Assembly: GCF_005239225.2 (NCBI RefSeq)
Contig: NC_133299.1
Coordinates: forward strand, 14,991,154-15,055,153
Origin: Populus alba
Taxonomy: Eukaryota; Streptophyta; Magnoliopsida; Malpighiales; Salicaceae
Direction: 5' to 3'
DNA length: 64,000 bases
The position numbers were made by a program, and so were the translations under genes. Below, piece after piece: positions 1,080-52,338 of this stretch. Each line of letters begins with the position of its first letter. Position 1 is the stretch's first letter. Below the pieces are notes generated by a model. It made no database searches and was not told the origin of the DNA. It saw only the letters and a program-made list of their open reading frames with translations.

Positions 1080-2261
1080 CATATGACTGAGAAATACATA
1101 TGGCTAATTAATCCAACAACTAACAATTTTCTTTTCATTTCAGCATGCAAACCTAGTAATGGTTGTGGTTAATTAACATAAATGACAACAACATATGGTC
1201 ACAGTATTGCAAACAAGAACAATAAACAACACCCAAAGTTTTATTCAAGCACCAACAAACAGACAAGTAGTTACGTGATTGTAAAAAATAGAAACACATA
1301 CTCGATTTTACAGCACCTTCTCTTTTTGGTGATAGACAAGTTTGTAGGAGTAAAATATTATTGTGCCTCCTACACCAACACAAAACTGAACACAAATTCA
1401 TTAACAATAAATACGTAATTGTGAGAAATAATTGAACAAACAAGCAGCCATTTACGATTGTGGAGTTGAAACAAGTTCACAAGGCTGCTTGATACATCCC
1501 AGTAAAGAAGTTGCAGAATCATTGTACAGTCCAACTTTGAAATGGTTGTAGGAAGCAGTGTGAAGTAAGGAAAAATTGATTATTGACAAGTTGAATACTT
1601 GCTGAAATTTGTAATCATAACTCACTTTAGATTTTATATGAATTTCAGATCAAACTCAACGTTGACCTAGGATTGGTAAAATTATTAAGCATAAACTGCA
1701 TATTTCTTCGCTAGATCACGGGAACCATAGCAAACAACCTAAAAATTAACAAATTATTGTCACCAAATTTATTCTTATTTTAGCAACTACAACACAAGGA
1801 GAAGCCCGGATACTGTATTAATTTTGAACAATAGATAGACAAAATTATTCACTATGAAAACAACTGCAAAAATGAGAAAAATACCTTTTTAACAGATCTA
1901 CAAGATCAACAAACATGGAATCGCATCTCGAGTATAAAAAGAAAGGAAAATTAGTTTCCACAACAGAGGAGAGAAGATGGTCGGAGGAGATAGATCTTCA
2001 ATTTTCTTCAAATAGGGTCTTGCGTAAATTATTCAGATTATTGGAATATTGTAAAAATTACTTTAAAATTAATTAAATGATTTTATGAATTTATTGGATA
2101 ATTCTGGTTAAAAAGATTTTAAAAAAAGGCTGGATTGGATTTTTTGGTCTAAATTAAACATTTTGAAAGCTTATCCTTCTTAGTACTGATTTTTTTTATG
2201 TTTATATGCATGATTTCTTCATGTGATACAAATTTTTGTAAATATTCTTTATATTAATATA
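1080..2261. other. AT-rich stretch without a recognisable gene
   Basis: Short open frames on both strands around 1150-1440 have no recognisable motif and no coding-like composition. The part at 1890-2010 read on the minus strand has a pyrimidine-rich look like a 5' UTR, but no start or exon could be tied to it. It ends at the 8-bp target duplication of the hAT element. Confidence 0.5.
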
Positions 2262-5249: not shown

Positions 5250-7480
5250 TGTTGTAACCCATTTTTGGGTCCCCATGAAAAATAAAATAAATAGCCAAAA
5301 GAGTTTAGAAAAAATAACAGAAGGCAGAAGCGCTCAGGAAACAATCAGAAAATTGGTCAAGAAATTCAAAAATACAAGGATTAAATTTTTGACAGTATAT
5401 TCTTGAAGGATAAAAAGCCCTATTGAGAAGAAAATTTGAATTTTGAGGAGAAAAGCCCAATTTGGATTTTTATGGACTTAATTGGATTTTTAGGGACTTA
5501 ATTGGATTTTTATTGCAAGAAAAATTAATTTTTAAAGTCAATTTGGGCTTTAATTTGAAGAAATTTAAGTTCTGGGGCCAAAATATATTTTTTAGGAATT
5601 TATTGGGTCAAATCAAGGGCTCAATTGCATAAATATTGAAGTTTAAGGGCCAATTAGGGATTTAATTAAGAAAATCCGAAACCAGGGACCAAATTGGAAG
5701 AGGCGCGTAAATGGAGGGGCTGCAATTTTTCGGTTCAGGGGCTTATTTAAGAAATTGAAAGTTTTATTGATCAATTAGGGGCTCAATTGCATAAATCAGA
5801 GGCCAAACAACCAAAGTGAAAAAGGCGGCCAACAAGAGGGGCGGGGACCGAATTTGGGGGACTGGTTTGAAGTTTAACCATTTAAATGAAACGACACGTT
5901 TTACCCAAAACGACGCCGTTTCATATATATAAAAAAAAAAAGAGGAAGATCAGAACGGTGTCGTTTTGAACGACACTGTTCATCTTCCTCCTTCCCCCCG
6001 TTTAACAGAACAGAAGAAGAGAAAAATTCGAAAATCTTCCTCCGCCTCTCTCTCTCCTCGCCCCCACCACCTTTAGATATTGGCCGACCAGCCGTTACAC
6101 CCCATGGTCCCCCACCGGTTCTGCCCCTCATAAATAGGAAGAAAACCGAAAAGAAAAAGAAAAAGAGACCCCGAGAGGAATAGAGAGAGAGAGACCCGAA
6201 GGGAGGAGAAGAGAGAGAGAAAAACCTGCGTTTTTTTATTTCCTCTAGGCCAGACAACGTCCAGAGAGATCTGGCCCGGTCCGGCGGCCTGGGCCGGGTC
6301 CGGCCCAGACCGAGGTTAATTATTTTTTGGGCCGAGTTCGGCCCAGTACATGTTGGGCCGAGTTCGGCCCAGTATCTGTTGGGCTGGTCCGGCCCAGTTT
6401 AGTTTGGGCCGGCCCAGCCCTTTTAATATATAAATATATTATAATTAAATTATTATTATTATTATTATTATATATTATTATTATATATGTGTATATATGC
6501 TATATATATAAAAAATGTATATATATATAAAAAAATATTTCGAAAAAATCTAAAAAAAATATTGTTGATTTTTCTGCATATTTTTGTCAAAAAATGTTTT
6601 AATTCTGGTTTGTATTTTTATACTGTAAAGATACAAAACCAGTATTAAAATACCCGGTTTTCGTCAAAACATCAAAGATTTTCAGAATAAAAAATGTTTT
6701 GCTTTCAAAAAATTTCTAAAAAGTCCCCTAAAAATGTTGTTGATTTTTCTGCATATTTTTATCAAAATGGATTAATATTGGGTTGTATTTTCTATACCGT
6801 AAGGATACAAGCTCAGTATTAAAATACCTGATTTTCGCCAAAGCATAAAAAAAATAATATTTTTTCCAAAAATTGTTTTTGTTTTAAAATACGGCCTAGT
6901 CTCTCCAATATATATACATAAATATTATAACATCATATTTTCACACAACAAAGAAAATTTTCAAAACAATATATGTATTAACATTCATTTTGGCTTTAAT
7001 AACCAGTTTATTCAAAGCCATGAGAAAACTAGGCCAATATTTCAAAAATTCTAAAAAATCTTTCTGTTTTATTTTAGTATTTGGGATTACGAATTTAGAC
7101 GTAAAACTTATTCCTAAGTATTATTAATAAAATTTTGGTATGGACGTTAGAACGGTTAGGATTTTTACCCGATAAGATAAAAGACCTTCTTACTGAGGAG
7201 ATTTTTCTTGAACCATAGACAGATCAACGACTAGGGAAACACAACAACACTTTAGTTTTTTATCAGACAATAAAACAATGCAGCTTACCTTAGGTAGGGC
7301 GTATTTGGGGTGCTAATACCTTCCCTTTACGCAACCAGTCTCCGTACCCGATCTCTGAGACCAGTTAGGTTCCTAGTGACCAAAATACTAGGTGGCGACT
7401 CCAAAGAACCAAAAATAATAAAAATTTTCGCCAGTCGAACCCGCAAATTGAAATATTTGATTTTTTTTTTGGGTGCGACA
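5250..7480 (+). repeat. 5' LTR of the gag-only retrotransposon
   Basis: It is 2231 bp and begins TGTTG and ends GCGACA. A TATA-like CATAAATAGG lies at 6128-6137, followed by the purine-rich GAGAGA tract. A cluster of GGCCCA/TGGGCC motifs lies at 6280-6421 and the conserved Tat R/U5 block at 7270-7410. Compared with the 3' LTR it lacks about 190 bp at position 6225, corresponding to 13478-13670. A (TTA)n run lies at 6445-6475. Confidence 0.9.
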
Positions 7481-9477: not shown

Positions 9478-10574
9478 AGGTTGGAAAACCTTGGTCAAGA
9501 GTCGTCAATAATGAAGAAGGCGAGATCGAAGGCGAGATCGAAGGAAACACAAGTGGGGAAGGAAGATGAAGCATTGCCTCGGTTGACTTTCCACACACTA
9601 GAAGAAGTTTTAGAACGGGTTGACCCAAGAACTTCTCGTAGTTTTCAAAATGTAAAACAACTTTATTTGCCTTAGCATGCTTTTGTCTTTGCTTTTATTT
9701 TCTCTAGTAAGCATTCAGAGCTCATTTTATCAGCCAGATTTTTATGTTTATCTTTGAGCCTACCTTTTCTTTAAATAAATGATGAGATTTTGCACTTTTG
9801 GAACAAGTTGAGTGGTTACAAACAAAGTATCATAAAATGGTTTAATATGAAATTTAAGAAAAGCTACCCTTGAAATACAACCTCACCTCTGGATAACATA
9901 ATGAATTGATACATCACCTGTAAATTTTCTTTCAAGATAAAAATAGAGTTTATCAATCCTAAACAATGTGCATTTTTGAAAAAATACATCATTTGTCCTT
10001 TCACTCTCTAAAGAGTTTTTTGGTTGGTGGTTTTGTTTTGAGTCGGAATGGATTTCTTCTTTATATAAAAGCCCAGACTAATATCGCACCCCTGCACTGG
10101 GGGCAAGACGAGATGTTTTATGAAAAGTTTTACGAAAGCCTATAGATTTGAAAACCAAGCTAAAGCATTTGACAAAAGCATGACAAAGAGGCAAATACAA
10201 GTCATACATTTTGAGAAAAAGACTACTTAAAGAAAGTCAAAGACTTCTTCTCCAAGAATATAATAGGCAACACGAGAGATAAATCTAGCATAGGACTTCG
10301 AAAGTAAGTTCATGTTAAGAGGGAGTCTCATGAACTAGAAGAAGAGGTTGGGACCTATGTTTCAAAACCAGGTATAAATGCATGCATTGCATCTAATCAT
10401 AAATCATTGCATATATGTTTTTTTGGATCGTTACAGGAGGAGATCTTAGCGTATTCCAACAAGATTATAGACGAAGAAAGAATCATTGAGTTGTTTCTAG
10501 AACAACAAGAAGAGAAGATAATGGTTTTCAAACCCTGCCAGCAGGAAAAACGACATCGATAGCATTCGGTAAAA
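9478..10574 (+). other. Non-coding 3' region of the gag-only element where pol would be expected
   Basis: No protease, reverse transcriptase or integrase motif is visible on either strand. A short open frame at 9481-9675 has no known motif. The phrase 'ctgcactgggggcaag' near 10095-10110 and 'gggacctatgtttcaaaacc' near 10350 recur in altered form in the Tat-like sequence at 31606-32700, so this is the 3' untranslated part of the family. Confidence 0.65.
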
Positions 10575-11110
10575 AGGAATCGCCAAATGGGATTCCAAGT
10601 TGTTGAGATCGACAGAAGGGATCTCGTATTTCGATAGAGGTCACTAGAAGGGACCTCAAATTTCAGCTTTTGTATAAAAAGAATCGCCAGATGTGATTCC
10701 AAGTTGTTGAGATCGCCAGAAGGGATCTCGTATTTCGATGGAGGTCGCCAGAAGGGACCTCATATTTCAGCTTTGAATAAAAGGAATCACCAGATGGGAT
10801 TCCAAGTTGTTTGAGATCGCCAGAAGGGGTCTCGTTTTTGATATTCATCAATGGAGGTCGCCAGAAGGGACCTCAAATTTCAGTTTTGGTATAAAATGAA
10901 TCGCCAGATGGGATTCCAAGTTGTTTGGCTAAAGGAGATCGCCAGAAGGGATCTCATATTTCAATGAAAGTCGCGAGAAGGGACCTAATATTTCAGCTTT
11001 GAATAAAAAGAATCGCCAGATGGGATTCCAAGTTATTTGAGATCGCCAGAAGGGATCTCGTACTTCGACATTCATCAAGGAAGGTCGCCAGAAGGGACCT
11101 CATATTGAAA
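10575..11110 (+). repeat. Tandem repeat array A in the retrotransposon 3' UTR
   Basis: About five degenerate units of roughly 105-110 bp. Each is built of three similar sub-blocks ('gaatcgccagatgggattcc', 'gagatcgccagaagggatct', 'gaggtcgccagaagggacct'). All share the core ATCGCCAGA or GTCGCCAGA, so the array probably grew from a shorter ancestor. A divergent trace reappears at 12230-12340. Confidence 0.85.
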
Positions 11111-11144
11111 CCATTTCTTAGAAAAGCATGGAGTTTACAGAATT

Positions 11145-12205
11145 CTTCCCCCTGGGTAGGTCACCCATACAATGAGACCATCATTTTTCTTGGGTTCGTC
11201 ACCCATACAATGAGACCATCTTTTTTCTTGGGTTCGTCACCCATACAATGAGACCATCATTTTTCCTGGGTAGGTCACTCATACAATGAGACCATTATTT
11301 TTCTCGGGTAGGTCACCCATACAATGAGACCATCATTTTTCTTGGGTAGGTCACCCATACAATGAGACCATTATTTTTCTGGGTAGGTCACCCATACAAT
11401 GAGACCATTCTTCATTTTTTTACCTGGGTAGGTCACCCATAAGAATGAGGTCATTCCTTCCCCTGGGTAGGTCACCCAAAGAATGAGACCACCCTTTCTT
11501 TTCCCTTGGGTCGGTCACCCATACAATGAGACCAGCATTTTTCTTGGGTTCGTCACCCATACAATGAGACCAATGAGACCATTCTCCATTTTTTGTTTAG
11601 CTGGGTAGGTTACCCATAAGAATGAGGCCATTCCTTCCCCTGGGTAGGTCACCCAAAGAATGAGACCACTCTTCCTTTTTCTGGGTAGGTCACCCATCAC
11701 AATGAGACCATACTTTTCTGGGTAGGTCACCCATAAGAATGAGACCATTCTCCATTTTTTGTTTATCTGGGTAGGTCACCCATAAGAATGAGGCCATTCC
11801 TTCCCCTGGGTAGGTCACCCAAAGAATGAGACCACTCTTCCTTTTTCTGGGTAGGTCACCCATCACAATGAGACCATATTTTCTGGGTAGGTCACCCATA
11901 AGAATGAGGCCATTCCTTCCCCTGGGTAGGTCACCCAAAGAATGAGACCACTCTTCCTTTTTCTGGGTTCGTCACCCATACAATGAGACCATCATTTTTC
12001 CTAGGTAGGTCACCCATACAATGAGACCATCATTTTTCCTGGGTAGGTCACCCATAAGAATGAGACCATTCTCCATTTTTTTACCTGGGTAGGTCACCCA
12101 TAATAATGAGGCCATTCTTCCCCCTAGGTAGGTCACCCAAAGAATGAGACCATTCTTTCTCTTTTCCACTCGGGCAGGTCACCCATCATAATGAGACCAC
12201 ACACA
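11145..12205 (+). repeat. Tandem repeat array B in the retrotransposon 3' UTR
   Basis: More than twenty units of about 38-55 bp, each carrying 'ctgggtaggtcacccat' followed by an 'aatgagaccat' phrase and a T-rich spacer. The core GGGTAGGTCACCC is an imperfect palindrome. Higher-order blocks of about 190 bp are duplicated inside it (for example 11600-11760 against 11770-11940). Open frames on the minus strand here only reflect the repeat. Confidence 0.88.
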
Positions 12206-32702: not shown

Positions 32703-34140
32703 ACATTGACAAATCATCCCTCACCTCCATTTTGAGTTCGCCTTTGAGCCCTCATCCATTCGGTAGTGCGTTTTCTAACCCTACCTCCTTTTGAGTGCGC
32801 CTTTGAGCCCTCACCTCCATTTTGAGTGCGCCTTTGAGCCCTCATCCCTTCGGTAGTGCGTTTTCTAACCCTACCTCCTTTTGAGTGCGCCTTTGAGCCC
32901 TCACCTCCATTTTGATTGCGCCTTTGAGCCCTCATCCCTTCGGTAGTGCGTTTTCTAACCCTACCTCCTTTTGAGTGCGCCTTTGAGCCCTCACCTCCAT
33001 TTTGAGTGCGCCTTTGAGCCCTCATCCCTTCGGTAGTGCGTTTTCTAACCCTACCTCCTTTTGAGTGCGCCTGCGAGCCCTCACCTCCATTTTGAGTGCC
33101 CCTTTGAGCCCTCATCCCTTTGGTAGTGCGTTTTCTAACCCTACCTCCTTTTGAGTGCGCCTTTGAGCCCTCACCTCCATTTTGAGTGCGCCTTTGAGCC
33201 CTCATCCCTTCGGTAGTGCGTTTTTCTAAACCTACCTCCTTTTAAGTGTGCTTTGAGCCCTCACCTCCATTTTGAGTGCGCCTTTGAGCCCTCATCCCTT
33301 CGGTAGTGCGTTTTCTAACCCTACCTCCTTTTGAGTGCGCCTTTGAGCCCTCACCTCTATTTTGAGTGCGCCTTTGAGCCCTCATCCCTTTGGTAGTGCG
33401 TTTTCTAACCCTACCTCCTTTTGAGTGCGTCTTTGAGCCCTCACCTCCATTTTGAGTGCGCCTTTGAGCCCTCATCCCTTCGGTAGTGCGTTTTCTAACC
33501 CTACCTCCTTTTGAGTGCGCCTTTGAGCCCTCACCTCCATTTTGAGTGCGCCTTTGAGCCCTCATCCCTTCGGTAGTGCGTTTTCTAACCCTACCTCCTT
33601 TTGAGTGCGCCTTTGAGCCCTCACCTCCATTTTGAGTGCGCCTTTAAGCCCCCATCCCTTTGGTAGTGCGTTTTCTAACCCTACCTCCTTTTGAGTGCGC
33701 CTGCGAGCCCTCACCTCCATTTTGAGTGCGCCTTTGAGCCCTCATCCCTTTGGTAGTGCGTTTTCTAACCCTACCTCCTTTTGAGTGCGCCTTTGAGCCC
33801 TCACCTCCATTTTGAGTGCGCCTTTGAGCCCTCATCCCTTTGGTAGTGCGTTTTCTAACCCTACCTCCTTTTGAGTGCGCCTTTGAGCCCTCACCTCCAT
33901 TTTGAGTGCGCCTTTGAGCCCTCATCCCTTTGGTAGTGCGTTTTCTAACCCTACCTCCTTTTGAGTGCGCCTGCGAGCCCTCACCTCCATTTTGAGTGCG
34001 CCTTTGAGCCCTCATCCCTTTGGTAGTGCGTTTTCTAACCCTACCTCCGTTTGAGTGCGCGTTTGAGCCCTCACCTCCATTATTGAGTGCGCCTTTGAGC
34101 CCTCATCCCTTAGGTAGTGCGTTTTCTAACCCAACTTTTC
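32703..34140 (-). repeat. 90-bp tandem repeat array, about 16 copies
   Basis: Units of 90 bp with the anchor 'cggtagtgcgttttctaacc' recur with few substitutions. Each unit contains two related sub-blocks, 'gagtgcgcctttgagccctc' twice, so it arose by duplication of a shorter motif. Because 90 is divisible by 3, the minus strand reads as a 30-residue repeat (starting MRAQRRTQNGGEGSKAHSKG) over long stretches. I treat these frames as repeat artefacts: they are split by unit-length slips at 33220-33240 and 33560-33640 and have no start context. Confidence 0.92.
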
Positions 34141-36385: not shown

Positions 36386-37958
36386 ATTTATTTTTAACAT
36401 TGGCGCATTAAAATGATAAAAAAAACTAAACTAAACAAAACTAAATTTTTCAAAAGCATGGTTTGAGCGCAGTCTCAAACACATCCTTGGACCTCGTTAG
36501 GGACTAGGTTTGCATTAGAGTTTCAACAAAATTTAAATTTTTATTTGCTTAAAATTATATATATATATATATATATATATTTAGTCATTTCGATGTGTTG
36601 ATGTATATAATTTTTTTTAAATAAAAAATTATTATTTAAAAAAATAATTGTTACAACACTTAGAAACACCCCTTAACCATATATATATATATATATAAGA
36701 AAGAAAGAAAACGAAATTTCCGGGAAGAGAAGGGCTGGAAAAAAAGGGGAAAGAGAAAAATCAGCGAGTCAAAATAAAACAAAATGCAAAGAAAAGTCAA
36801 GGAGAGGTGAGGTGAGAGATCCTCGAGATCAATGCGGATCGTAGTGGCGAAGATTAAATACAACTCTTGGAGTGGTTCTTGATTACATCAATTAATGCAG
36901 ATCGCAGGGGCGAAGACTGTTTTTATTACGAGTGATGCTCTCAAGTTTAATTGTTCTTTCATTGTAAAATTAAATGCAATTCATGTTTTATTGCTTTAGT
37001 TTTCCTCAATGTAAAAATGTTTGCCTTGTGGGTGACATAAAGAGTAAAATACATTATTTATTTTTGTTAGTTTTTATACTGTGTTTTGAATTCTGATCAA
37101 ACTTTATGATTTGGAATAAATGATCATTCAATAAAACTTAATTAGTTGAATAACTTAAGTAAAATTTGTTAATTTGGAGTATTTAATTGCAAGAGGATAA
37201 ATGAATTGGATCATCTGATTCTCAAGATGAAAAACTCAATATTAATATCTTAATTATTTCAAAATGAAATCTCTATTTTTATTATTATTGACTTTAAAGT
37301 TAAGCATTGAAATTAAACTTCCTTTTCATTAAAATTGTAGATATAATTTAATTTGATATCAATTTATTATCGGGTGTTTAATTTATCATTTTCTTCGTAC
37401 GTATATGGTCCATGCATCGAAGATGGGAGGCTTTTAGAGGAGAAAGATTTTTATTATTACCTTTTAGAGAAACAACTTTGCAAATAGAAAAATAGAGACT
37501 CGTTGACCATATATTAATCACCGGCTTTTAAAGAAACAACAGTCCAAAAATTGAACATGAAATTAAGCTCTTAATAATATTCTTGTGTGAATGAATGACT
37601 TGTTGATTGTGTTATAAACAATAGATTTATTGTCATGAGAAGACACGACTCATTTTATCAACGATATTGTTTGGTTTTGCCAACACCATTAAAATTAAAA
37701 TTAAGGCATGATTTTCCACACATTATGTTATACACAATAGACTTGAAGGAATTAATTAGTGGGTTGGAAAAACGTCTTTTGCTCTAATAATTTCTTCAAT
37801 TGTATATAGTCTTACATTATTATTATTATCAGAAAGTGATATATACTTCTTCTGTTATCCTTCAAGTTTTCAATTGAAAAAGGAGGGTCGTAAAAATATT
37901 TAATTTTAATAAATATACAATTAACTTTGGATGTGGATAATTAAAAATTAAAAGAATA
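36386..37958. other. Intergenic DNA between the LTR and the CACTA element
   Basis: Contains an AT-rich dispersed repeat (36536-36660), (AT)n runs near 36558-36580 and 36680-36697, an imperfect direct repeat of 'gcggatcgtagtggcgaaga' (near 36834 and 36898), and the LOR relic at 37355-37446. No intact gene is visible. Confidence 0.5.
37355..37446 (+). pseudogene. Relic of a third LOR gene (end of intron 1 and start of exon 2)
   Basis: About 92 bp align with the LOR copies at 46700-46790 and 53650-53740. They share the intron phrase 'gtgtttaatttatcatttt' and the exon phrases 'ccatgcat' and 'gggaggcttttagaggagaa'. The acceptor CCAG of the intact genes is replaced by TTCGTACG. Because intron sequence is kept, the relic came from DNA-level duplication and not from a retrocopy. 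It lies 0.5 kb from a CACTA element end. Confidence 0.8.
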
Positions 37959-38778
37959 CACTACAACATTTAACAGTTTTACCGACGGAATTTTTTCGTC
38001 GGCGTAAGACACATAGTCCATCGGTAATTAATTTACTAACGAAATCACCGACGGAAATACTCTGTCTGTAAATCTTTCATCGGTAATTTTTTGTCCGTTG
38101 GTAAATTTGTTGGTAATAAAAAAATATTATTACCGATGGATTTACTGTCGGAACATTTGTGTAAAAAAAAAATTACCTCCTTCATTCCATCGGTATATCC
38201 CTCGGTAATAATATTTTTTTATTACCAACTGATTTACCGAGGGTAATTTCGTTGGTAATTATTTAAAAAAATTCATTTCATAAAATTATAAAATAATTAA
38301 ATTAACATAAATCAAGACTCTATAATATATACTCAAGATGCTTGGAAAAAAGAATAAGAAAATCAACTCAAACAAATTTGCAACAAATAAATAAAAAGAA
38401 GAAATAAATTCAACTAAAAAAATTCATATGAAAAAAATGAAGTGGCAATTGCTAAAAATTTAAAAAATCCTATAAATAAATCAACTAAAAATTGATCTCA
38501 TATGAAAAAAAATCTCACAACAACATTTATACAATTATTAAGAACAAAAACAATTAAAAATAAAATAAAATAAAAAACAAATATAGTGAAAAAAATTATA
38601 AAAAGAAAAAAGAAAAAAGAAAAATCTTACCTTAATGTAGTTGCAAGTGAAGCTAAGGAGAGAAAACAAATTTCGTAAAGCATATTAAATACAAAAAAAC
38701 TAAGAGGATAAAAGAAGAAAGAAAAGGAAGACCCGAGCATGGAGGAGAAGAGAAGGAGATGAAGAGAGAAAAGATGAG

Positions 38779-40533
38779 TGACACGACCAAAAGCTTGATG
38801 TCTTCTCCCAAGTGCAGGAGTGTCGAAGTAATAAATAACCCGGCAAGACCGGGGCGAACCACAGAGAGGTTAATTGTATAAATTATAAATAACAAGACAA
38901 CAACAATAACAACAATAACAATAATAGTAATAATAATAATACTCAGTACGTGGCGTTGTTACACCTGAGAATGATCTAAAACATCGAGTCACAGGTTTCC
39001 AGCCTATATACTGAGTTTATGAAAAGATCAAAGAGATATATTATATAATATAAACAGAATGTAAATAATAATAATAATAACAATAATAATAATAGTAGTA
39101 GTAGTAGTAGTAAAAGAAGAAGAAGATGAAGAAATTAATGAGAACTTTGAGATGAAAGATTAATGTAAGGATTAAACAACGATAAAAATAAATGTCAAGG
39201 TTAGAGGATCCACTAATGGTACTTCAAACAAGTATAATATAAACTCTTATTACTCAATTGGAAACCACACATAAAGGAGGTTCCAATCAGATTATAAATT
39301 GTTAACATGATTACATTAGTTATCTTATTCGAATAAAGCTAATACTTGTAAATGTTGGCAGGCATTCATGATTATAACTTATGTTAACAACAAATCAAGT
39401 CCCTTTCATAGCTCAAGTGTCGGTTATACCATACAGTATGGGCTATGAAAGTACCAAGTATTTGTTGTACCAAGTGTTATACAACATAAATCTAGATTAA
39501 CCATTTAACAAGCAAAGTATTAAAAGTGAACAAGATAACAAATATAAAACATGTTAGTATCCAACGTTAAGGTCCATGTTAAGTTTATACTATACTTATT
39601 CTTACACCATTAGCGTACCCTTTTCACCTTGACATAACTAACTTAGCTAAACATAATGAAAGAAAGAAAGAAACATAAATGAACAAGATAAGAACATAAA
39701 TGAGAAAGAAGTTAACTAAGTAAAGGAAAGGAAATGAAGTGCATAAACTTGATATTAATGAAAGCAAAACGTAAGCAATACAAAGAGAGAAAGCAAGAGC
39801 ATGATCTTGATCTGGAAACCAAGATGCCTCAATACATGGTAAGTGCCTCCTTTTATAGGCCAAAATTTAGAACTATTGATTTGTTAATTAATTGATGAGT
39901 GGGTGGCCACATTTTGACTTGGTGACAATCCTTATCTTTTTGTCTGAACAAGACGTCATTGCTAACATCATAATTTGCCCAGAATCCTCAGGAATGTTCT
40001 AGGAAATTGTCTCAGCTTTCCAACAAAAAAAAGATGAGGTCATTTGGACTTCTAGAACTCAAGATATGGGCTGAACACTAAATAGTGTCTGGGCTGCAAG
40101 ACAGCTTCGGACTTCTTCGTTGTTCCTTCAGTTTGGACTTCAAAATGGCTTTTTTAAATTTGGGATCCACATGAAAGTTGTAGGCCTTTGTCTTATCTTT
40201 CCATCCATATAAAATGGACCCAAATCCGAGATCTAGAGCTCCAGATATGATCCAATTACCGAGCAATGTTCCGGTTTGGACTGCACGGGCATCTCTTTTC
40301 TAAGTTTGGCCATCTCTTTGTCCTTTCACTTTCAATACTTAAACTCATCAATAAATCCTTTTATTTATGTGATAGGCCTGCATTTAAGATGAGCATTTAC
40401 CATAAATTAAGGTATCTTATAGTATCAAACTTGTTATTATAAAACATGCTTTAGTTAAGGAGTTATTGATACTTCAAGTGCAAAATGATGATATAAAACC
40501 TTGATAAACATGCACTTTTAAGTACTAATTACA
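38779..40533 (-). repeat. 3' LTR (minus-strand sense) of the LOG-carrying retrotransposon
   Basis: It is 1755 bp and nearly identical to 42670-44446. Contains (TAA)n/(TAG)n runs near 39066-39112 and a TATAAAA box on the minus strand at 39857-39851. A 79-residue minus-strand frame (39624-39863) exists in both LTRs but has no recognisable motif. Confidence 0.85.
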
Positions 40534-41769
40534 CCCCCCAACCAGCTTATTACTAGTCCCTAGTAATCTAAAGCGTTAAAATAGAGAAACAATTTGCAAG
40601 TATTACAAAGCAAGGCATTCATCATTCAACTTCTATTAATCTATCTAGATAAACAAACTCTCATTAAATTTATATTACTGCTTCATACTTCTTAAACAAG
40701 ATATTAATAAACCTTCTTTTATGTGCTCAATATATGAAAACATAGATGATGGGGCTTTTGTTGGAAGAAAACAATATTATGTTCAAATGTTTAAGGTGAA
40801 CTTCCTTGGGTTGGGATTATTATTATTATTACTTTTTTTTTCTCTTTTTTTTTTATTTATATACACATACAACTTAAAACACAATGTATCTTTAACCCAT
40901 ATAACGAGTTTTAGGCTAATGACTCCCAGACCAGTTGGTCTTAGGGCATTAGGTGTTGAGACACCCTTACGAGCTTAACAACTCGGGTTGTAGATACTGA
41001 TACGTAGATAGTGCAATGTTTGATTCCCTTAAGCTTTTCTCCTTAACCCATGTAACAAGCTTTGGGCCAATAGCTCCCAAGTCAGTTGACTTTAGGGTAT
41101 TAGGTGTTAAAACACCCCTTCGGGCTTAATTGCTTAGGTTAGGGAGGCTACGAAACCAAACTTATCTACGTTTTTATTATCATCAATATTATCATTATTT
41201 TTTTTATTTTTTTGCAAATTATATACTATCCCTTACCCTTAGTTGTTACCTTCAACAAAAGAACATAAATAATGTAATAATCCAATGTGCAACCCAAAAT
41301 CATATGTTAAAGTGTGTGTGTGAAAATGAAGGTTTAATAATACTTGTTAAATGAGTATAGGAGCAGAATTAAGTGATAACAATGCGAGAGTTTGTAAACC
41401 TGAATATTTCAAGAAGTATTCTAATAGGCCTTGTTATGAATATTGCAAATAACCATTAGAAAATTTTTACTAAGATGCCTCTCAAGAATAATTCCTCTTT
41501 ACTCTGCCATCCTAGTAATAACAGTTTTGCCAAATGGTTTTTTAAAAACAACAACAGTTAGTTGGTTAGTTTTTTTTTTTTTTAAACTACTACCCTTTCC
41601 CCCCAACCAAAACGAGACATTGTCCTCAATGTCCTAAGGTAGAAAGATAGAGTATAGAAGACATCACCGGAAACAACGAACAATGATAAACCTAAAACAC
41701 ACTTAAACAAATATAAGAAGTAACAGAACAAAATAATATGTTATTAATAAAACCAAAAGACACAAGGTT
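40534..41769 (-). other. Non-coding interior of the LOG-carrying retrotransposon
   Basis: On the minus strand this follows the LOG stop codon. It holds the phrase 'cattgaggacaatg' with a G-rich tract near 41600-41630, two diverged copies of a block containing 'ccagttggtcttagggcatt' or a variant (near 40920-40980 and 41060-41130), T-rich stretches, and finally the purine tract next to the LTR. No reading frame with retroviral motifs is present. Confidence 0.65.
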
Positions 41770-42423
41770 TCACAGATGAAGGCTCAAATCTAATCTAAGC
41801 TTTTTACGGCTTTCCTTAGCTGACCAATCTAGGCGACTCATGCAAGGATCAATGACAGGGATGAAAGATTGTAGTTGGTCAATCAATTGTTCAGCAGTAG
41901 CAGCAGAGATTATGATTTGTCGTGCTGAAGATGTTAGAAATTCCTGTTCCACAGCTTGATCAAGGAAAGACAGCAACTTATCATAAAAATCATTAACATT
42001 TAACAAACCTATAGGTTTATGGTGAATGTGCAGTTGGGCCCAAGATGAAATATGAAAGATCTCTTCCAATGTGCCCAGACCACCTGGTAAGGCAATGAAG
42101 GCATCAGCATGGCTAAACATGGAATTCAGTCGATCAGACATTGTTGGGACCTGTAATTCCTCTCCAATTGTTTTTCCAATGATGTCTCCATTTGCTAAAG
42201 CTTTGGGGACAACCCCCAAAACTTGACTGCCTCCTAAAAATGCAGTCATTGACACACCTCCCATTAACCTAAGGCTGCCTCCCTCATACACTAAATGAAT
42301 CTTTCTCTCAGCTAGTACTTGACCAAGATGATTTGCTGATTCTAAAAACTCTTTTTCTTTCCCAGGGCTGGATCCACCGAAAACACAAATATTTCTTATA
42401 TGATGACTTGAGGAACCTGCCAT
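41770..42423 (-). CDS. LOG-like cytokinin riboside 5'-monophosphate phosphoribohydrolase, intronless, inside a retrotransposon
   Basis: One uninterrupted 217-residue frame covers the whole lysine-decarboxylase-like (LOG) fold. LOG enzymes release active free-base cytokinins from their riboside monophosphates. Visible are the N-terminal ICVFGGSSPG, the signature LPGGLGTLEEIF near residues 114-125, and the tail phrases PIGLLNVNDFYD and SARQIIISA. Length is normal for the family. Two usually conserved glycines differ: YGGG is YEGG, and LGLMG is LRLMG, near residues 46-54, so activity may be reduced. Plant LOG genes normally have several introns; none is present here. The ORF lies in sense inside the retrotransposon, with a TATA-like site 65 bp upstream. 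No stop or shift is seen, so it could be expressed. Confidence 0.88.
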   Translation of the reverse strand: MAGSSSHHIRNICVFGGSSPGKEKEFLESANHLGQVLAERKIHLVYEGGSLRLMGGVSMTAFLGGSQVLGVVPKALANGDIIGKTIGEELQVPTMSDRLNSMFSHADAFIALPGGLGTLEEIFHISSWAQLHIHHKPIGLLNVNDFYDKLLSFLDQAVEQEFLTSSARQIIISAATAEQLIDQLQSFIPVIDPCMSRLDWSAKESRKKLRLDLSLHL

Positions 42424-42488
42424 TTCTACACACTTCTATATTTGATGAATGTACAGGATGAGTAGAAATGAAGGGAAGGAAGAGAAGA

Positions 42489-42496
42489 ATTTATAG
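42489..42496 (-). promoter_or_regulatory. TATA-like site upstream of the LOG ORF
   Basis: The minus strand reads CTATAAAT, followed by a pyrimidine-rich stretch and the ATG 65 bp later, as in a plant promoter. If it belongs to the captured gene, the captured segment includes promoter DNA. Confidence 0.5.
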
Positions 42497-42669
42497 ATGA
42501 AAAAGTAGAAATGCAATCATACCACCTATATGTAGGCCAGCTGTAGCCTCACACTCTCTCTCTTTTTATTAATTATTTATTTTGAAAAAGCATGTATGTA
42601 CAGGTAGTTGTGATTGTGGCTCATATCTTCCCTTGGTTTTACGTCCAAGAACGGCTTAAACGCCCTCTA

Positions 42670-42792
42670 TGGGTCGCATTGACCAAAAGCTTGATGTCTT
42701 CTCCCAAGTGCGGAGTGTCGAAGTAATAAATAACCCGGCAAGACCGGGGTCGAACCACAGAGAGGTTAATTGTATAAATTATACATAACAAG

Positions 42793-42827
<35 letters not shown>

Positions 42828-44446
42828 AACAATAATAGTAATAATAATAATACTCAGTACGTGGCGTTGTTACACCTGAGAATGATCTAAAAGATCGGGT
42901 CACAGGTTTCCAGCCTATATATTGAGTTTATGAAAAGATCAAAGAGATATATTATATAATATAAACAGAATGTAAATAATAATAATAATAACAATAATAA
43001 TAATAGTAGTAGTAGTAGTAGTAGTAAAAGAAGAAGAAGATGAAGAAATTAATGAGAACTTTGAGATGAAAGATTAATGTAAGGATTAAACAATGATAAA
43101 AATAAATGTCAAGGTTAGAGGATCCACTAATGGTACTTCAAACAAGTATAGTATAAACTCTTATTACTCAATTGGAAACCACACATAAAGGAGGTTCCAA
43201 TCAGATTATAAATTGTTAACATGATTACATTAGTTATCTTATTCGAATAAAGCTAATACTTGTAAATGTTGGCAGGCATTCATGATTATAACTTTTGTTA
43301 ACAACAAATCAAGTCCCTTTCATAGCTCAAGTGTCGGTTATACCATACAGTATGGGCTATGAAAGTACCAAGTATTTTTTGTACCAAGTGTTATACAACA
43401 TAAATCTAGATTAACCATTTAACAAGCAAAGTATTAAAAGTGAACAAGATAACAAATATAAAACATGTTAGTATCCAACGTTAAGGTCCATGTTAAGTTT
43501 ATACTATACTTATTCTTACACCATTAGCGTACCCTTTTCACCTTGACATAACTAACTTAGCTAAACATAATGAAAGAAAGAAAGAAACATAAATGAACAA
43601 GATAAGAACATAAATGAGAAAGAAGTTAACTAAGTAAAGGAAAGGAAATGAAGTGCATAAACTTGATATTAATGAAAGCAAAATGTAAGCAATACAAAGA
43701 GAGAAAGCAAGAGCATGATCTTGATCTGGAAACCAAGATGCCTCAATACATGGTAAGCGCCTCCTTTTATAGGCCAAAATTTAGAACTATTGATTTGTTA
43801 ATTAATTGATGAGTGGGTGGCCACATCTTGACTTGGTAACAATCCTTATATTTTTGTCTGAACAAGACATCATTGCTAACATCATAATTTGCCCAAAATC
43901 CTCAGGAATGTTCTAGGAAATTGTCTCAGCTTTCCAACAAAAAAAAAGATGAGGTCATTTGGACTTCTAGAACTCAAGATATGGGCTGAACACTAAATAG
44001 TGTCTGGGCTGCAGGACAGCTTCGGACTTCTTCGTTGTTCCTTCAGTTTGGACTTCAAAATGGCCTTTTTAAATCTTGGGCCCCTCAAAAAGTTGTAGGC
44101 CTTTGTCTTATCTTTCCATCCATATAAAATGGACCTAAATCCGAGATCTAGAGCTCCAGATATGATCCAATTACCGAGAAATGTTCCGGTTTGGACTGCA
44201 CGGGCATCTCTTTTCTAAGTTTGGCCATCTCTTTGTCCTTTCACTTTCAATACTTAAACTCATCAATCAATCCTTTTATTTATGTGATAGGCCTGCATTT
44301 AAGATGAGCATTTACCATAAATTAAGGTATCTTATAGTATCAAACTTGTTATTATAAAACATGCTTTAGTTAAGAAGTTATTGATACTTCAAGTGCAAAA
44401 TGATGATATAAAACCTTGATAAACATGCACTTTTTAGTACTAATCA
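42670..44446 (-). repeat. 5' LTR (minus-strand sense) of the LOG-carrying retrotransposon
   Basis: It is 1777 bp and nearly identical to 38779-40533, with small differences in the CAA/TAA microsatellite near 42790-42850. Its minus-strand start TGATTAGTACT borders the ATGAG duplication. No clear primer binding site was recognised after its end at 42670. Confidence 0.83.
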
Positions 44447-45174
44447 ATGAGAAAGAAATAAATATTGATGTTTTTTACATATAGTGAAAAAGAAGAATAC
44501 GAAAAAGAAGAAATGAGTTTGTCTCTTGTGAAATAAGAGGATTCAGGCTTTTTATTTTGGCGTGTTAACAACAAATTTACAGAAGAATAATTAAATATGA
44601 ATATTTTTTAATTATTCCGTTGATAATTCCATCGGTAATATTTAATTTAAATTTTGAAAAAACTTTTCAGAAACCGTCAACAATCACCAACGATTTTTTT
44701 ATTTGTCGGTGATTCCGTCTGTAATATTTAAATAAAAATTTTGAATTAATTGAATTTTTTCAGAAAACCGCCAAATAACACCGATGACTTTTCAATCTGT
44801 CAGTATTTTTATCCATAAAGAACAATAATTAACAGTGCATTTGGAAAGTGAACAGTTCTGGAGCTCTCTGTAAAATACCGACGGAAAATTCCACCAGTGA
44901 TTCCCTTTGTAATTGACAAAAAAGAATAGTGTTCAGAGTTTACCAACGAATTTACCGACGGATTTTACCAACATAATTTATTCCGTCGGTAATTCTTTTG
45001 GTAAAAATAACACGTCATCATTTTTTTTTTGCTTTGTTTTATTTTTTTGCCCACTGTAATTCCCTCGGTATATACCGAGGGAATATTTCCATCGGTAAAA
45101 TCCCTTGAAAATTTATCGACAGAAATATTCTCTTAGTATTTTCGTTTGTATTTATCGATTTTCTGGTAGTGATA

Positions 45175-46372: not shown

Positions 46373-47357
46373 ATGGCTACTGGGCAAGCACCAGGCAACC
46401 CCATTCCAGCTATGAGAACATACCCGCCGGTGGAGCATCCAGTGGTGGTAATAGGGCCACAGTACCTGGCACAGTACCCTGTTGACCTCGCCGTCAACAG
46501 TGATTTTAAGGTGTCTGACATTAATGGCACCCTCATGTTCCAGGTCAAGAGTAAACTATTAAGCCTACGTCGTCGTTTTCTGAAAGATGCAGCCGGAAAC
46601 ACCCTTGTCAATCTCAGGCATATGGTATGCTTAATTGCTCTCTGTCTTTTGTTCTCTTCTTTTTCAATCTAACCATCACAACAACGATAAGAGTCAATCC
46701 GATATCAATTTCTTACCGCGTGTTTAATTTATCATTTTCTCCAGATAAGGACCATGCATGGGAGGTGGGAGGCTTTTAGAGGAGAAAGCGAGGAGCAGAG
46801 TGATTTGATTTTCACAGCCAAGAAATCAAAGCTGTTCCAATTCAAGACTGAGTTAGATGTATTCTTGGGTAATAACAAAGGAGAGGTCCCTGATTTCAAG
46901 GTCAAAGAAGGCAACAGCGAGAGTTCCTGCTCTATACTTCTTGGAGATTCCAATACCATGCTTGCACAGGTAACATTAACAAAACTTATTTCTGAAATAT
47001 ATCAATATTGAATAAATTTAACCAACATCATCTTCTCATATAGAACTATATGTCTGTGGCTGAGGCTGTCGTAGAAATACCCCAGATTTCATTACATCAT
47101 TTACATTAAAACCAATTATTGTTTTAATCAAGAAAGTTGTCTTCATAATATCTCATGCCAGTATCTTTCTTATTATGTGAACGCAGGTGCATGGAAGACA
47201 CACTCTCGCGATTATGCCTAATGTTGATTATGCCTTCATAGTGGCTCTTGTGGTGGTGATTCTCAACGGGAACAATGCGGATGATCATGGGGACTCGGCC
47301 CTTACTGGCCTTAAGGTTGTTGACGGTGTTATCGAAGGAATTGGTTCGTCGGCGTAA
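46373..47357 (+). CDS. LURP-one-related (LOR/tubby-like C-terminal fold) protein, copy 1
   Basis: Three exons, 46373-46624, 46745-46969 and 47187-47357, with GT-AG borders in phase, give 215 residues. The N-terminus (PQYLAQYPVDLAV, DFKVSDINGTLMFQV) and the middle (LIFTAKKSKLFQFKTELDVF) match the LOR family, related to Arabidopsis LURP1, whose members have a tubby-like barrel and include defence-responsive genes. Compared with the family, about 15 residues are missing after the exon 2-3 junction: MLAQ is followed by VHGRHTLAIMPNVDYAF, without the usual strand between. The C-terminus is longer and ends GIGSSA. Its last codons and stop, TTCGTCGGCGTAA, equal the subterminal sequence of the CACTA element at 37994-38010. 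The gene appears intact but rearranged at its end. Confidence 0.88.
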
Positions 47358-50124: not shown

Positions 50125-52338
50125 AAAAACAATTATTATCTCAGACAAAATATCCCAAGCGACAATCTCAATATAAGAGAGCAAAAATTCAAAATGTCAA
50201 GATCAAAACGCAAATGTCCATTAACATTAACACTGTTCATCTTCTTCACCCGAAAAAAGAAGAAAACGGATGCCTTTATTGCATTAAAATCCATGCGACT
50301 GCATGGCATTCTCTGGTTATAAAAACCAGAGAAGGAGAACCGGCAGGAGAAGGAGAAAAAAGGGCAGAATCGAGGGGCCAATAGGGAGCATGAACGAAAA
50401 CAGAGAGGGGACCTAAAAACAGAGAAATAGGGAGAGAGCAAAAGGACAGCAGGCCTGCTTTGCCTTTGTTCTCAAAACTCAAGTGAAGTGCAGGGAAACT
50501 GCAAGCGTTGGTCAGCCTAATTATTCGTCTCCAGCTACACACTCCAAACCATCGGAAGAGAGAACTGAGAAAAACAGGAGAAAAGGAGGAGCAGAACCGA
50601 GGAACACAAACAACCAGAGAAGAAAAAGCCACGAACGGGAGAAAAGGAAAAACTGTGGAAACTGGGGGGAAGACGAAAACAAAACCAGGGGAGCCGAGAG
50701 AGAGAAGACTGGAGAGACAAAAACAGTGAGGCACATTGGCCAGCCAACACAGGAGCGCCAACCTCGTCTCCGGTTGCGCCAGCCCCTTCCCCCTCCGAAC
50801 AGACATAATACAGAGACGAGAAGAGAGCCATGAGCAGACTTTCGTTCCTCTGTTTCTTCTCAAAGAAACAGAGGAGGCTAAAGAAAAAGAGCCACGAGCA
50901 GGGGACGAAGAAAAGAGGCAGGAGACGCAGGACACCGAGAGAAAACAGTGAGGCACATTGGCCAGCCAACACAGGAGCGCCAACCTCGTCTCCGGTTGCG
51001 CCAGCCCCTTCCCCCTCCAAACAGACATAATACAGAGACGAGAAGAGAGCCACGAGCAGACTTTCGTTCCTCTGTTTCTTCTCAAAGAAACAGAGGAGGC
51101 TAAAGAAAAAGAGCCACGAGCAGAGGACGAAGAAAAGAGGCAGGAGACGCAGGACACCGAGAGAAAACAGTGAGGCACATTGGCCAGCCAACACAGGATC
51201 GCCAACCTCGTCTCCGGTTGCGCCAGCCCCTTCCCCCTCCAAACAGACATAATACCGAGACGAGAAGAGAGCCACGAGCAGACTTTCGTTCCTCTGTTTC
51301 TTCTCAAAGAAACAGAGGAGGCTAAAGAAAAAGAGCCACGAGCAGAGGACGAAGAAAAGAGGCAGGAGACGCAGGACACCAAGAGAAAACAGTAAGCATA
51401 AAAGGCAGGAGGAGACAAGCAGAAGGGAAGAACCTAAGCAGAGGAAAGCCACCATGACCAGAACCAACATTGCTGCTGCCTTCGGTGTTTCCAGAACCAG
51501 GTAAGTAGGCTTCACTTCCCCCACTTTTCATTTTAATTCACTCCCTTCATCTGCACATGCACGCGTGATTTAATTCACGCGTGCTTTATGTTGCCCAGCT
51601 GGGTCACTGGCTTGGGCCAGTGACCGGGCCGGGCTGGCTGGATCCAGCCCAGTCCATGTGGGCTGAGGGGGGCCCAGTCCAAAAAATAAAAATATAGAAA
51701 AATAGAAAAATAAAAAGTAGGAAAAATAAAAAATAATAAAAAATGTGTATGCATAAATAAAAATAATATAAATTTATTGGTTTATTCACTGACGCTAGAG
51801 TCAGGAATAAAAATAGCGGTTTAAACTTATATTGTTTTTATTCAATGTATTTTATTTTATTTAGCTAAAAAATAAAAAATATGTGCATGCGTAAAAATAA
51901 ATTTATTTTATTTGTTTATTCACTAGCATTAGAGATAGAATAAAAATATTGATCTGAATTTATTTTATAGCTACGTAATATTTACCAATGCCAGAGTTGG
52001 AAGTATCCGTAGTCGAATATTCCCTAGCGCCAGATTTAGGAATATTATAAACAAACCATCAGAGCATAAACTAATAAATATTTAGCAATTTAAGACAAAA
52101 TCATCCATGCAGTCTGCCGCAGGCAGAACGTTTAAAGGGTGATAATATCTTTCCTTTTACGTAACCAGTCCCGTACCATAGAATCTCTATTGACCAGTTA
52201 GGGTTCCTAGTGACCATAATACTAGGTGACAACTCCTTAAATAAGATCTTTTTTCTAAAAGAATAAGATGTCAGAAATCTATTCTTTTTCCATAACAAAG
52301 ATAAATATTTTAAGGCTACTATGATGTCGGGTGCGACA
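50125..52338 (+). repeat. Tat-like solo LTR with internal tandem repeats (left border uncertain)
   Basis: The right end has the conserved Tat R/U5 block (52135-52235) and the terminal GGGTGCGACA ending at 52338; no primer binding site follows, so it looks like a solo LTR. It holds three 222-bp tandem units, a GGCCCA-rich part (51600-51680) and a donor-like CCAG/GTAAGT at 51500/51501. The left border is not clear because a related 45-bp segment containing 'agacaaaa(t/c)atccc' occurs both at 50142 and after the right end at 52362. Long minus-strand frames (50276-51524) follow the tandem units and are not genes. Confidence 0.65.
50720..51394. repeat. Three tandem 222-bp units inside the solo LTR
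   Basis: Units start at 50720, 50942 and 51164 with 'acagtgaggcacattggcca' and differ by only a few substitutions. Each contains an inverted pair, 'cctctgtttcttctc' and 'aaagaaacagagg', able to form a hairpin. The unit length is divisible by 3, which explains the long repeated frames on both strands. Confidence 0.92.

Follow-up and report, generated by a model that had tools for sequence, protein, structure and literature searches.

Transposons are usually thought to need gag and pol only. Athila elements display env-like extra ORFs between pol and the 3' LTR, and Steinbauerova et al. reportedly described, in 2011, extra ORFs resembling LOGL4 in two Athila-like elements. The aORFs located between pol and the 3' LTR have been reviewed, and maize Bs1 is described as carrying transduced pieces of host genes between its LTRs (PMC7264820, sections used here). 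LOG-type ('YgdH') domains were attributed in one sentence to Ty3/gypsy elements of Citrus and P. trichocarpa, the P. trichocarpa case appearing only with the filter of at least five consensuses switched off; an m6A-demethylase domain was found in orchid Ty3/gypsy elements of two Phalaenopsis species (PMC9289625, sections used here).

The poplar element analysed here shares a LOG-family domain and one genus with the Citrus and Populus elements; copy number, selection, tail, pocket, neighbouring ORF and non-autonomous derivatives are absent from the sections of that account used here (PMC9289625). An earlier note on this DNA had regarded a LOG-bearing element as a non-standard example; this could not be upheld, since LOG-type domains in Ty3/gypsy elements were already in print, and it is the cassette, selection, tail and pocket that look new. 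In the orchid elements, too, a Ty3/gypsy lineage carries an enzyme domain of host type, but the enzyme is another one and a second virus-like ORF is not mentioned in those sections. Maize Bs1, proposed as a parallel in the same note, also carries a host gene between LTRs (PMC7264820, sections used here). It fits poorly because LOG is under purifying selection (variants in at least five copies at 0.31 of neutral amino-acid change, unlike a captured gene free of constraint) and belongs to a transposon clade also found in Sapindaceae; in addition, the poplar element carries a whole gene, and carries it beside gag-pol in fuller copies. Like the env-like ORFs of Athila, the extra ORFs lie between pol and the 3' LTR in sense orientation, but their products are an enzyme and a nucleic-acid-binding protein of flexivirus type instead of an env-like protein. 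No title or abstract opening listed in the literature searches linked a retrotransposon to a protein of flexivirus type.

The window copy

The window, i.e. the whole stretch of 64,000 nucleotides of Populus alba DNA that was analysed, harbored on its minus strand an LTR element at 38779-44446, read to the base. Re-reading of target site duplication (TSD) and LTR termini showed that the coordinates proposed previously were exact at both ends; the proposed TSD corresponded to CTCAT in element orientation on both flanks (44447..44451 on the 5' side, 38774..38778 on the 3' side). The LTR pair, the TSD and a polypurine tract agreed with the proposed LTR retrotransposon identity. All features of the retrotransposon given below were on the minus strand. 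The 5' LTR (42681..44446), starting with TGATTAGTACT at 44446 and delimited by LTR-LTR alignment and by the LTR ends of other copies, lacked the final six bases GTGTCA present in the 3' LTR and in other copies. The 3' LTR (38779..40531), delimited by LTR comparison, displayed this end at 38779 and was directly preceded by the polypurine tract GGTTGGGGGGTG (40532..40543); its first dinucleotide was TA, versus TG in the 5' LTR. Both LTRs differed by 32 substitutions over 1701 compared bases (K2P 0.019).

The primer binding site (PBS) was absent. Sequence comparison placed a deletion junction at 42661..42680, composed of four extra bases AATG followed by CGACCCATAG..., the latter matching the final codons of ORFX, with its stop, in a fuller copy (L025). 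It was followed by a non-coding stretch with 84-95% identity to other copies (42424..42660), by the LOG ORF (41770..42423) and by a 3' internal non-coding region (40544..41769), recognized by comparison with other copies. As previously claimed, LOG was intronless, in sense orientation relative to the element and the sole protein-like frame between the LTRs. It spanned 217 aa, displayed G47E, G52R and G145D compared to the family, and ended in a tail with a basic cluster and LxLxLxLxL (RKKLRLDLSLHL; 41773..41808). The junction is read as one deletion that removed the 5' LTR end, PBS, gag, pol and ORFX, and the copy is a deletion derivative that is probably dead.

The retrotransposon was enclosed in a CACTA-like element (37959..45171), whose termini were ATA followed by CACTACAACA at 37959 and GGTAGTG, ending at 45171, followed by ATA. 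The nesting and flanking ATA duplication noticed earlier were readable, the ends being consistent with CACTA as a class read from the termini alone. Inverted subrepeats (38095-38243) were located near one end.

Fuller elements and their ORFX protein

The proposed genome search for other copies with the same LTRs and LOG yielded many and supported the claim that the family had moved and spread LOG copies: at least 150 LOG matches were scored, the best of 1248 first-look candidates. Fuller relatives were Ty3/gypsy elements of ~12 kb with gag, PR-RT-RH-INT, an ORFX of ~182 aa, LOG and 3' LTR. Domain PF03732 of gag was found in both upstream flanks tested. The pol ORF of L025 (1238-3619) displayed RVT_1 (7-123), RNase H (187-315), H2C2 (416-472) and rve (495-587), in the RT-RH-INT order of Ty3/gypsy. 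Comparison of copies thus showed the gene order gag, pol, ORFX, LOG, 3' LTR. LOG in place of gag-pol, as stated in the earlier note, held for the window copy but not for the family, whose fuller copies display gag, RT, RH, INT, ORFX and LOG. No LTR was found directly upstream of LOG among 20 large loci examined.

Features of LTR retrotransposons comprised TG..CA LTRs, TSD and polypurine tract in the window, and a PBS in the family: TGGCGCCGTTGCCGGGGA was exact in 11 of 23 loci larger than 5 kb, and L010 and L013 additionally matched it with a single change. This PBS is of a type that we take to be that of Athila; together with the 3' position of the extra ORFs and the Athila-like elements reportedly described in 2011, it makes the family look Athila-like. 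A tandem duplication instead of LTRs was ruled out because the LTRs recurred around the genome and bound elements with TSDs. LTR pairs of the family displayed K2P values of 0.0012-0.0191 and TSDs matched in two of three copies tested (AGTTG in L025, ATACT in L015); recent movement, as judged from sequence, was shown. Seven of 20 copies displayed an identical double pol deletion (630 to 2204 and 2652 to 3382, L025 coordinates), the second one ending at 3384 in L016. In all seven, the LOG frame spanned 217 aa and ORFX was nearly complete, three of them carrying a stop or frameshift in ORFX. Several copies hence share deletion junctions, through which much of pol was lost and LOG kept. All 23 copies retrieved independently of LOG, with part of the 3' internal non-coding region (40540-41740) as probe, displayed LOG, whole or partial, next to this region.

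ORFX of L025 (202 codons) matched PF05515 with 30.3 bits (cut-off 23) and PF01623 with 24 bits (cut-off 20.9). Among its relatives, 45 and 44 out of 63 matched these families at E <= 0.001, with a best E of 1.1e-8. The leading 20 or 21 matches of two fold/sequence searches were flexivirus proteins, except for unnamed entries (three in one search, one in the other), and were mostly named silencing suppressor or nucleic-acid-binding. The basic cluster and Cys motif of such proteins were thus matched above both cut-offs, while ORFX differs from them by an N-terminal part beyond the Pfam match and by its retrotransposon setting. The putative homology depends on a moderate Pfam match over a short stretch, about 31-85 residues around a single basic and Cys cluster. 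Fold matches are only supporting because both models were of low confidence (mean pLDDT 58.5 and 56.9): no viral match reached E 0.001, the best viral ones for these models being of the flexivirus family at E > 0.03, and the best E against solved structures was 0.55. No relative was confirmed in viral_contigs. The short match, the weak models and the viral_contigs result would suit a zinc-finger protein of the transposon's own, with flexiviruses having taken theirs from such an element or merely sharing a zinc-finger pattern. Against this stand the many members matched by two curated flexivirus families, the L025 scores and the leading search matches, so that a non-viral ORFX is a possibility to be reckoned with but not the favoured one.

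The LOG protein and its relatives

LOG of the window matched PF03641 (E 1.5e-37) and exceeded the subfamily cut-off of TIGR00730 (157 versus 96), but stayed below the equivalog cut-off of NF058542 (107 versus 300 bits). Its best sequence match among solved structures was Arabidopsis LOG3, 2a33 (named so in PMC4979012, sections used here). Of 62 other copies, 59 retained the glycine G47, 60 retained G52 and all 62 retained G145; as all three are changed in the window, its ORF, although open, may be inactive. Residue roles follow the CgLOG numbering, with Arg99 and Glu122 catalytic (PMC4979012, sections used here); of the 179 rows aligned, which combined LOGs of transposon and host, 173 displayed Arg99 and 175 displayed Glu122. 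Among 131 tailed rows, Lys100 was kept in two, Glu125 in one and His97 in 12, while all three were kept in eight out of eight Sapindaceae transposon rows checked and in 17 out of 17 host-type rows. The tailed transposon LOGs thus lack the prenyl/adenine pocket signature formed by these residues. The transposon protein is predicted to be a LOG-family enzyme, whose cytokinin specificity is uncertain because most of these pocket residues are changed.

EAR motifs are LxLxL or DLNxxP sequences near a terminus that bind TOPLESS. An EAR-type motif was present and conserved near the LOG C terminus, TOPLESS recruitment being read from the motif alone: leucines 209, 211, 213, 215 and 217 were kept in 62-63 of 63 copies, residue 216 being variable. 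The basic cluster and LxLxL tail were found in 104 of the 120 best relatives listed and in none of 15 rows that we labelled host-type; the LxLxL part was absent from Sapindaceae transposon LOGs. Mostly, then, transposon LOGs combine this tail with a changed base pocket and an intact catalytic Arg/Glu.

Transposon LOGs formed one clade (support 100/100), separate from host LOGs and including copies from Acer and Xanthoceras (Sapindaceae); two P. trichocarpa proteins in it carry the database name LOGL10. Host LOG exons, located with a 52-aa query, occupied 19 host-type places in P. alba, and 17 of 17 tested ended in a splice donor; a 100-aa LOG3 query gave only transposon-type sequences among the matches listed. 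The suggested comparison with intron-bearing paralogs yielded no recent donor: the 17 host-type exons fell outside the transposon clade (50 columns only), and recent capture from a poplar LOG was not supported.

Selection and competing explanations

Variants of 83 LOG copies, most of them best-scoring copies sampled through LOG, were divided according to the number of copies sharing them. Private variants displayed N96:S40 (expected N 105.4) and 12 stops (5.8 expected); those in two to four copies were near neutral (53:23, expected 60.9). Variants in at least five copies displayed N32:S43 (expected N ~102) and no stops (5.3 expected), differing from private ones (Fisher p 1.1e-4). In the LOG-independent sample alone (n=23, found via the region adjoining LOG), the private-versus-shared contrast was not significant (p 0.12), variants in two copies went in the opposite direction (18:3) and only eight copies displayed a full LOG frame. 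Mean dN/dS was 0.26 for LOG, 0.19 for ORFX, 0.24 for PR-RT and 0.15 for RT-INT. These patterns show that LOG decays almost neutrally once inserted, and that shared variants of LOG and ORFX are under constraint about as strong as in pol. Selection seems to have preserved the function of both genes during element spread. Because variants in at least five copies are strongly depleted of amino-acid changes, with constraint close to pol, LOG most likely serves the transposon as a working accessory gene and is neither passenger nor host gene.

A captured host gene merely copied along, as in maize Bs1, would agree with the gene capture well known from plant LTR elements (PMC7264820, sections used here) and with the near-neutral behaviour of single copies and of variants in two to four copies. 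It is nevertheless improbable in view of the reduction to about one third of neutral amino-acid change and absence of stops among widely shared variants, the similarity of LOG and PR-RT dN/dS, the frames persisting in pol-deleted derivatives (copies sampled through LOG) and a fully supported clade spanning Populus and Sapindaceae. That the tree itself kept the insertions as extra cytokinin-activating genes might be suggested by many open frames of ~217 aa (best-scoring copies) and by the LOGL10 names, but the near-neutral private variants with stops at or above expectation, the scarcity of full frames in the LOG-independent sample and the host-type LOGs already available make this extremely unlikely. 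The earlier note took the window for the mobile form of an element in which LOG had replaced gag-pol, and a TSD-flanked copy with LOG alone between its LTRs could give this impression. Since the PBS and 5' LTR end needed for normal reverse transcription are missing, none of 20 large loci displays the corresponding arrangement and fuller copies carry gag-pol plus LOG, it is highly improbable.

The explanation favoured here, and considered likely, is that the window harbors a dead, deleted copy from a young family, very abundant in Populus alba, whose fuller form is an Athila-like Ty3/gypsy element with two accessory genes, ORFX and LOG. These would occupy the position of retroviral env, ORFX as a nucleic-acid-binding protein related to flexivirus silencing suppressors and LOG as a LOG-family nucleotide 5'-monophosphate phosphoribohydrolase. 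LOG would be translated from element RNA and act for the element. Motif recognition suggests that it is probably nuclear through its basic cluster and that its tail (LxLxL/DLNxxP) probably contacts TOPLESS-type co-repressors. With an apparently intact catalytic pair and a changed base/prenyl pocket, it may alter a cytokinin or related adenine-nucleotide signal where the element is active, presumably in meristem and germ-line precursors, while ORFX may counter silencing or bind the element's RNA. An argument against an accessory role is that an enzyme working in trans is not expected to shield its own non-autonomous copies from decay, except where its effect is in cis or within a cell lineage. 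More tentatively, and rather doubtfully, both genes could form a host-manipulation module, in which a flexivirus-type suppressor and a neofunctionalised, nuclear, TOPLESS-recruiting LOG of new nucleotide specificity would be selected for rendering meristem or germ-line cells more permissive or proliferative where the element is active, and kept even by pol-poor derivatives.

Some database poplar 'LOG' genes, e.g. LOGL10 of P. trichocarpa, are probably transposon genes, and transposon-borne LOG outnumbers host LOG many times (at least 150 scored matches versus 19 host-type places). Selection appears to maintain both a virus-like protein and an enzyme of a hormone pathway in an abundant and recently active tree transposon, and manipulation of hormone signalling and silencing by a retrotransposon, as by plant viruses, becomes testable.

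The window copy and its CACTA-like host

The retrotransposon copy of the window was located on the minus strand, from 44446 to 38779, and was bounded by two CTCAT duplications. Its insertion within a CACTA-like element, proposed in the earlier note, was confirmed by readable ends, namely ATA followed by CACTACAACA at 37959 and GGTAGTG followed by ATA, ending at 45171. The LTRs differed by 32 substitutions over 1701 compared bases of the LTR-LTR alignment (K2P 0.019). Between them were found a LOG ORF of 217 aa (41770-42423, minus strand), a non-coding stretch of ~1.2 kb and a polypurine tract. The 5' LTR was six bases short at its end and the primer-binding site was missing; at the deletion junction, four extra bases were followed by CGACCCATAG, which corresponds to the final codons of ORFX with its stop, ORFX being the ~182-aa accessory ORF of fuller copies. 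A single deletion of ~6 kb, as measured on the fuller copy L025, would explain this structure. It probably took place after insertion, since the lost pieces are needed for normal reverse transcription. The LOG of the window also displayed three glycine changes at positions conserved in 59, 60 and 62 of the 62 other copies.

Direct repeats (37340-37446 and 46686-46788), 84-89% identical and ~9.3 kb apart, flanked the CACTA-like element; they perhaps mark a larger, older host element. Tandem arrays were encountered in the window at 32718-34132 (90-bp unit, 15.7 copies, 96% matches) and at 10570-12199 together with 50720-51393 (periods of 38-226 bp, and 222 bp x 3.0 at 98%).

Gene order and movement of the family

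The earlier note had called for a search of the genome for further copies, and LTR and LOG matches indeed recurred: first-look candidates, which are not confirmed copies, amounted to 4364 for the LTR (40 scored), 1248 for the LOG Pfam model and 1497 for the 3' non-coding region between LOG and the 3' LTR (40 scored). The 150 LOG matches that were scored were the best-ranked of the 1248, not a random sample, and 149 of them displayed no stop in the matched stretch. Gene order was examined in 20 copies of 9.6 kb each, drawn from the best LOG matches. None of these 20 had an LTR directly upstream of LOG; ORFX was found upstream of LOG, nearly full in 16 and as C-terminal pieces only in four, and nine copies displayed at least half of RT-INT upstream of LOG. 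RT, RNase H, integrase zinc finger and integrase core were all contained within one ORF of L025, followed by ORFX (3830-4378), LOG (4650-5303) and the 3' LTR (from 6519). Upstream flanks of L069-L071 (n=3) displayed the 5' LTR end, then TGGCGCCGTTGCCGGGGA, and gag (PF03732) was present in both flanks tested (L069 and L071). Judged by positions, the internal part of such copies was ~8.4 kb long and the whole element ~12 kb. At locus L021, tandemly repeated reading frames (1014-1994, minus strand) preceded an intact transposon LOG, and the locus had no pol match.

LTR pairs of six other copies (L023, L011, L025, L015, L028 and L010), some of them partial, diverged by K2P 0.0012 to 0.0156; L020 and L027 contained too little LTR for such a comparison. 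Target site duplications matched in L025 and L015, not in L028. At 8250-9016 of L028, the 3' LTR was followed without a break by sequence resembling gag/protease of this transposon type (by eye), an arrangement which, with the unmatched duplications, is that of a nested or recombined insertion. Two pol deletions with the same ends were shared by seven of the 20 copies (L009, L010, L011, L014, L016, L020 and L027), one end in L016 being two bases off from the other six. All seven kept the 217-aa LOG frame and a nearly full-length ORFX, which in three of them carried a stop or frameshift. Another near-identical junction (2670-2672/4186-4193), common to L023, L012, L017 and a second copy in L014, removed most of ORFX and spared LOG. 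Retention of LOG in deletion derivatives is partly a sampling effect, because the copies were found through LOG. Judged from these sequences, the family has been mobile in recent times, even in copies whose pol is incomplete.

ORFX matched Pfam families Viral_NABP and Carla_C4 in 45 and 44 of 63 relatives, respectively. It had 538 relatives, the best 120 of which included Populus, Xanthoceras and Acer. Foldseek searches with two poor structure models of ORFX gave no match at E 0.001; flexivirus proteins led both lists, most of them bearing the name silencing suppressor or nucleic-acid-binding, at ranks 1-21 in one search (one unnamed) and 1-20 in the other (three unnamed). LOG and ORFX of Xanthoceras bore consecutive gene numbers (ACOSQ2_032186 and _032187) on contigs of equal length, and the Acer gene model P0140 seemed, as read from its sequence, to be ORFX-like and then LOG, Pfam matching LOG only. 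In Acer P0169 and P0184 and in Xanthoceras P0117, LOG was joined to sequence resembling gag/protease of this transposon type (by eye). Gene models P0110 and P0117 of Xanthoceras sorbifolium each contained two LOG stretches in tandem, separated in P0117 by a transposon gag/protease-like stretch (by eye).

Descent and conserved residues of the transposon LOG

Steinbauerova et al. reportedly described, in 2011, two Athila-like elements with LOGL4-like ORFs. PMC9289625 recorded a YgdH/LOG domain among the LTR-element consensuses of two Citrus species and, once a filter was switched off, of P. trichocarpa, in agreement with Steinbauerova et al. 2011. A word count on parts of PMC7264820 and PMC6317226 returned no word starting with LOG, and the portions of literature searched contained no account of the copy number, selection, tail, pocket or ORFX neighbour of the transposon LOG.

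Of the 52 rows placed in a tree, 35 labelled transposon were separated from 17 host-type rows by one branch (100/100 support), the labels having been assigned by us without genomic context for metagenome rows, Reevesia and Parasponia (transposon-borne) and for three metagenome rows (host-type). The transposon side included Xanthoceras, Acer, Reevesia and Parasponia. In P. alba, 19 host-type places matched the LOG3 exon stretch at 65-96%, followed by transposon-type places at 50-56%. Two near-duplicates were omitted and one transposon-type place was added, resulting in 18 stretches. The earlier note had proposed to seek the donor among intron-containing paralogs; 17 of the 18 stretches, all host-type, ended in the splice donor GAG/GT and fell outside the transposon clade (100/99, 50 columns), and the eighteenth read through and fell inside it. 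Because the host-type stretches fall outside this clade, capture of LOG looks old and its donor does not look like a recent poplar gene. The transposon LOG clade also took in the database 'LOGL10' genes P0089 and P0150 (P. trichocarpa) and P0146 (P. nigra); these annotated hormone genes are therefore probably ORFs of transposons.

Arg99 and Glu122 (CgLOG numbering), whose catalytic roles are described in PMC4979012, were present in 173 and 175 of 179 aligned LOG rows. Among rows with the C-terminal tail, the adenine/prenyl pocket residue Lys100 was found in two of 131 (P0139 and P0160), being otherwise Leu (78), Met (37), Ile (13) or His (1); Glu125 was found in one of 131 (P0139), being otherwise mostly His (111) or Gln (16). 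His97, Lys100 and Glu125 were all present in the 17 host-type and eight Sapindaceae transposon rows checked. The tail, a basic cluster with LxLxL, was displayed by 104 of the best 120 relatives and by none of 15 host-type rows, whose status was assigned by us. Its five leucines were conserved in 62 or 63 of 63 P. alba copies, and residue 216 was variable. By its motifs, we read this tail as a putative EAR motif with a nuclear signal. The metagenome protein P0139 combined the LxLxL tail with a canonical pocket, which suggests a possible intermediate that acquired the tail before the pocket changed.

Selection on LOG and its possible role

Variants were scored against the commonest codon, first in 63 copies (62 and the window). 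Private variants comprised 77 amino-acid changes and 35 silent ones (95.8 amino-acid changes expected under neutrality; stops 4 vs 5.3 expected), those in two to four copies 33:20 (49.5 expected; stops 1 vs 2.6) and those in at least five copies 29:40 (96.1 expected; stops 0 vs 4.9), with Fisher p 5.9e-4 for private vs at least five. A LOG-independent set was taken to escape the LOG sampling bias, consisting of 20 of the 39 other scored 3'-non-coding-region places, from the top of the list, and L028, L054 and L063. LOG was at least partly there in all 23, at full length by blastn in 19; three of the remaining copies had fragments of 53-246 bases, and eight of the 23 retained the full frame. 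Private variants of this set were 59:30 (stops 8 vs 3.9 expected) and those in at least three copies 9:11 (22.3 changing expected); those in exactly two copies showed the opposite trend (18:3), and private vs shared gave p 0.12. For all 83 copies, the figures were 96:40 for private variants (105.4 changing expected; stops 12 vs 5.8), 53:23 in two to four copies (60.9 expected) and 32:43 in at least five (102 expected; stops 0 vs 5.3; p 1.1e-4).

Mean pairwise dN/dS was 0.26 for LOG (20 copies), 0.19 for ORFX (16), 0.24 for PR-RT (8) and 0.15 for RT-INT (9). The RNase H remnant of the pol-deleted group displayed a pN/pS of 0.46 vs 0.12 in pol-bearing copies, and the PR remnant a small rise (0.25 vs 0.20), whereas no rise was seen for LOG (0.24 vs 0.26) or ORFX (0.19 vs 0.23). 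Our reading is that an inserted copy would decay freely and that what gets copied onward would contain a working LOG.

The element may transcribe gag-pol and, by some route, ORFX and LOG. LOG would then enter the nucleus and, at sites of element expression, might alter active cytokinin or else a different adenine base; alternatively, it might hold co-repressors through its fold and tail. ORFX would protect or bind the RNA of the element. That selection on LOG was seen even in derivatives without whole pol suggests that the benefit of LOG may be tied to the copy encoding it, for instance via the cell lineage in which LOG is expressed.
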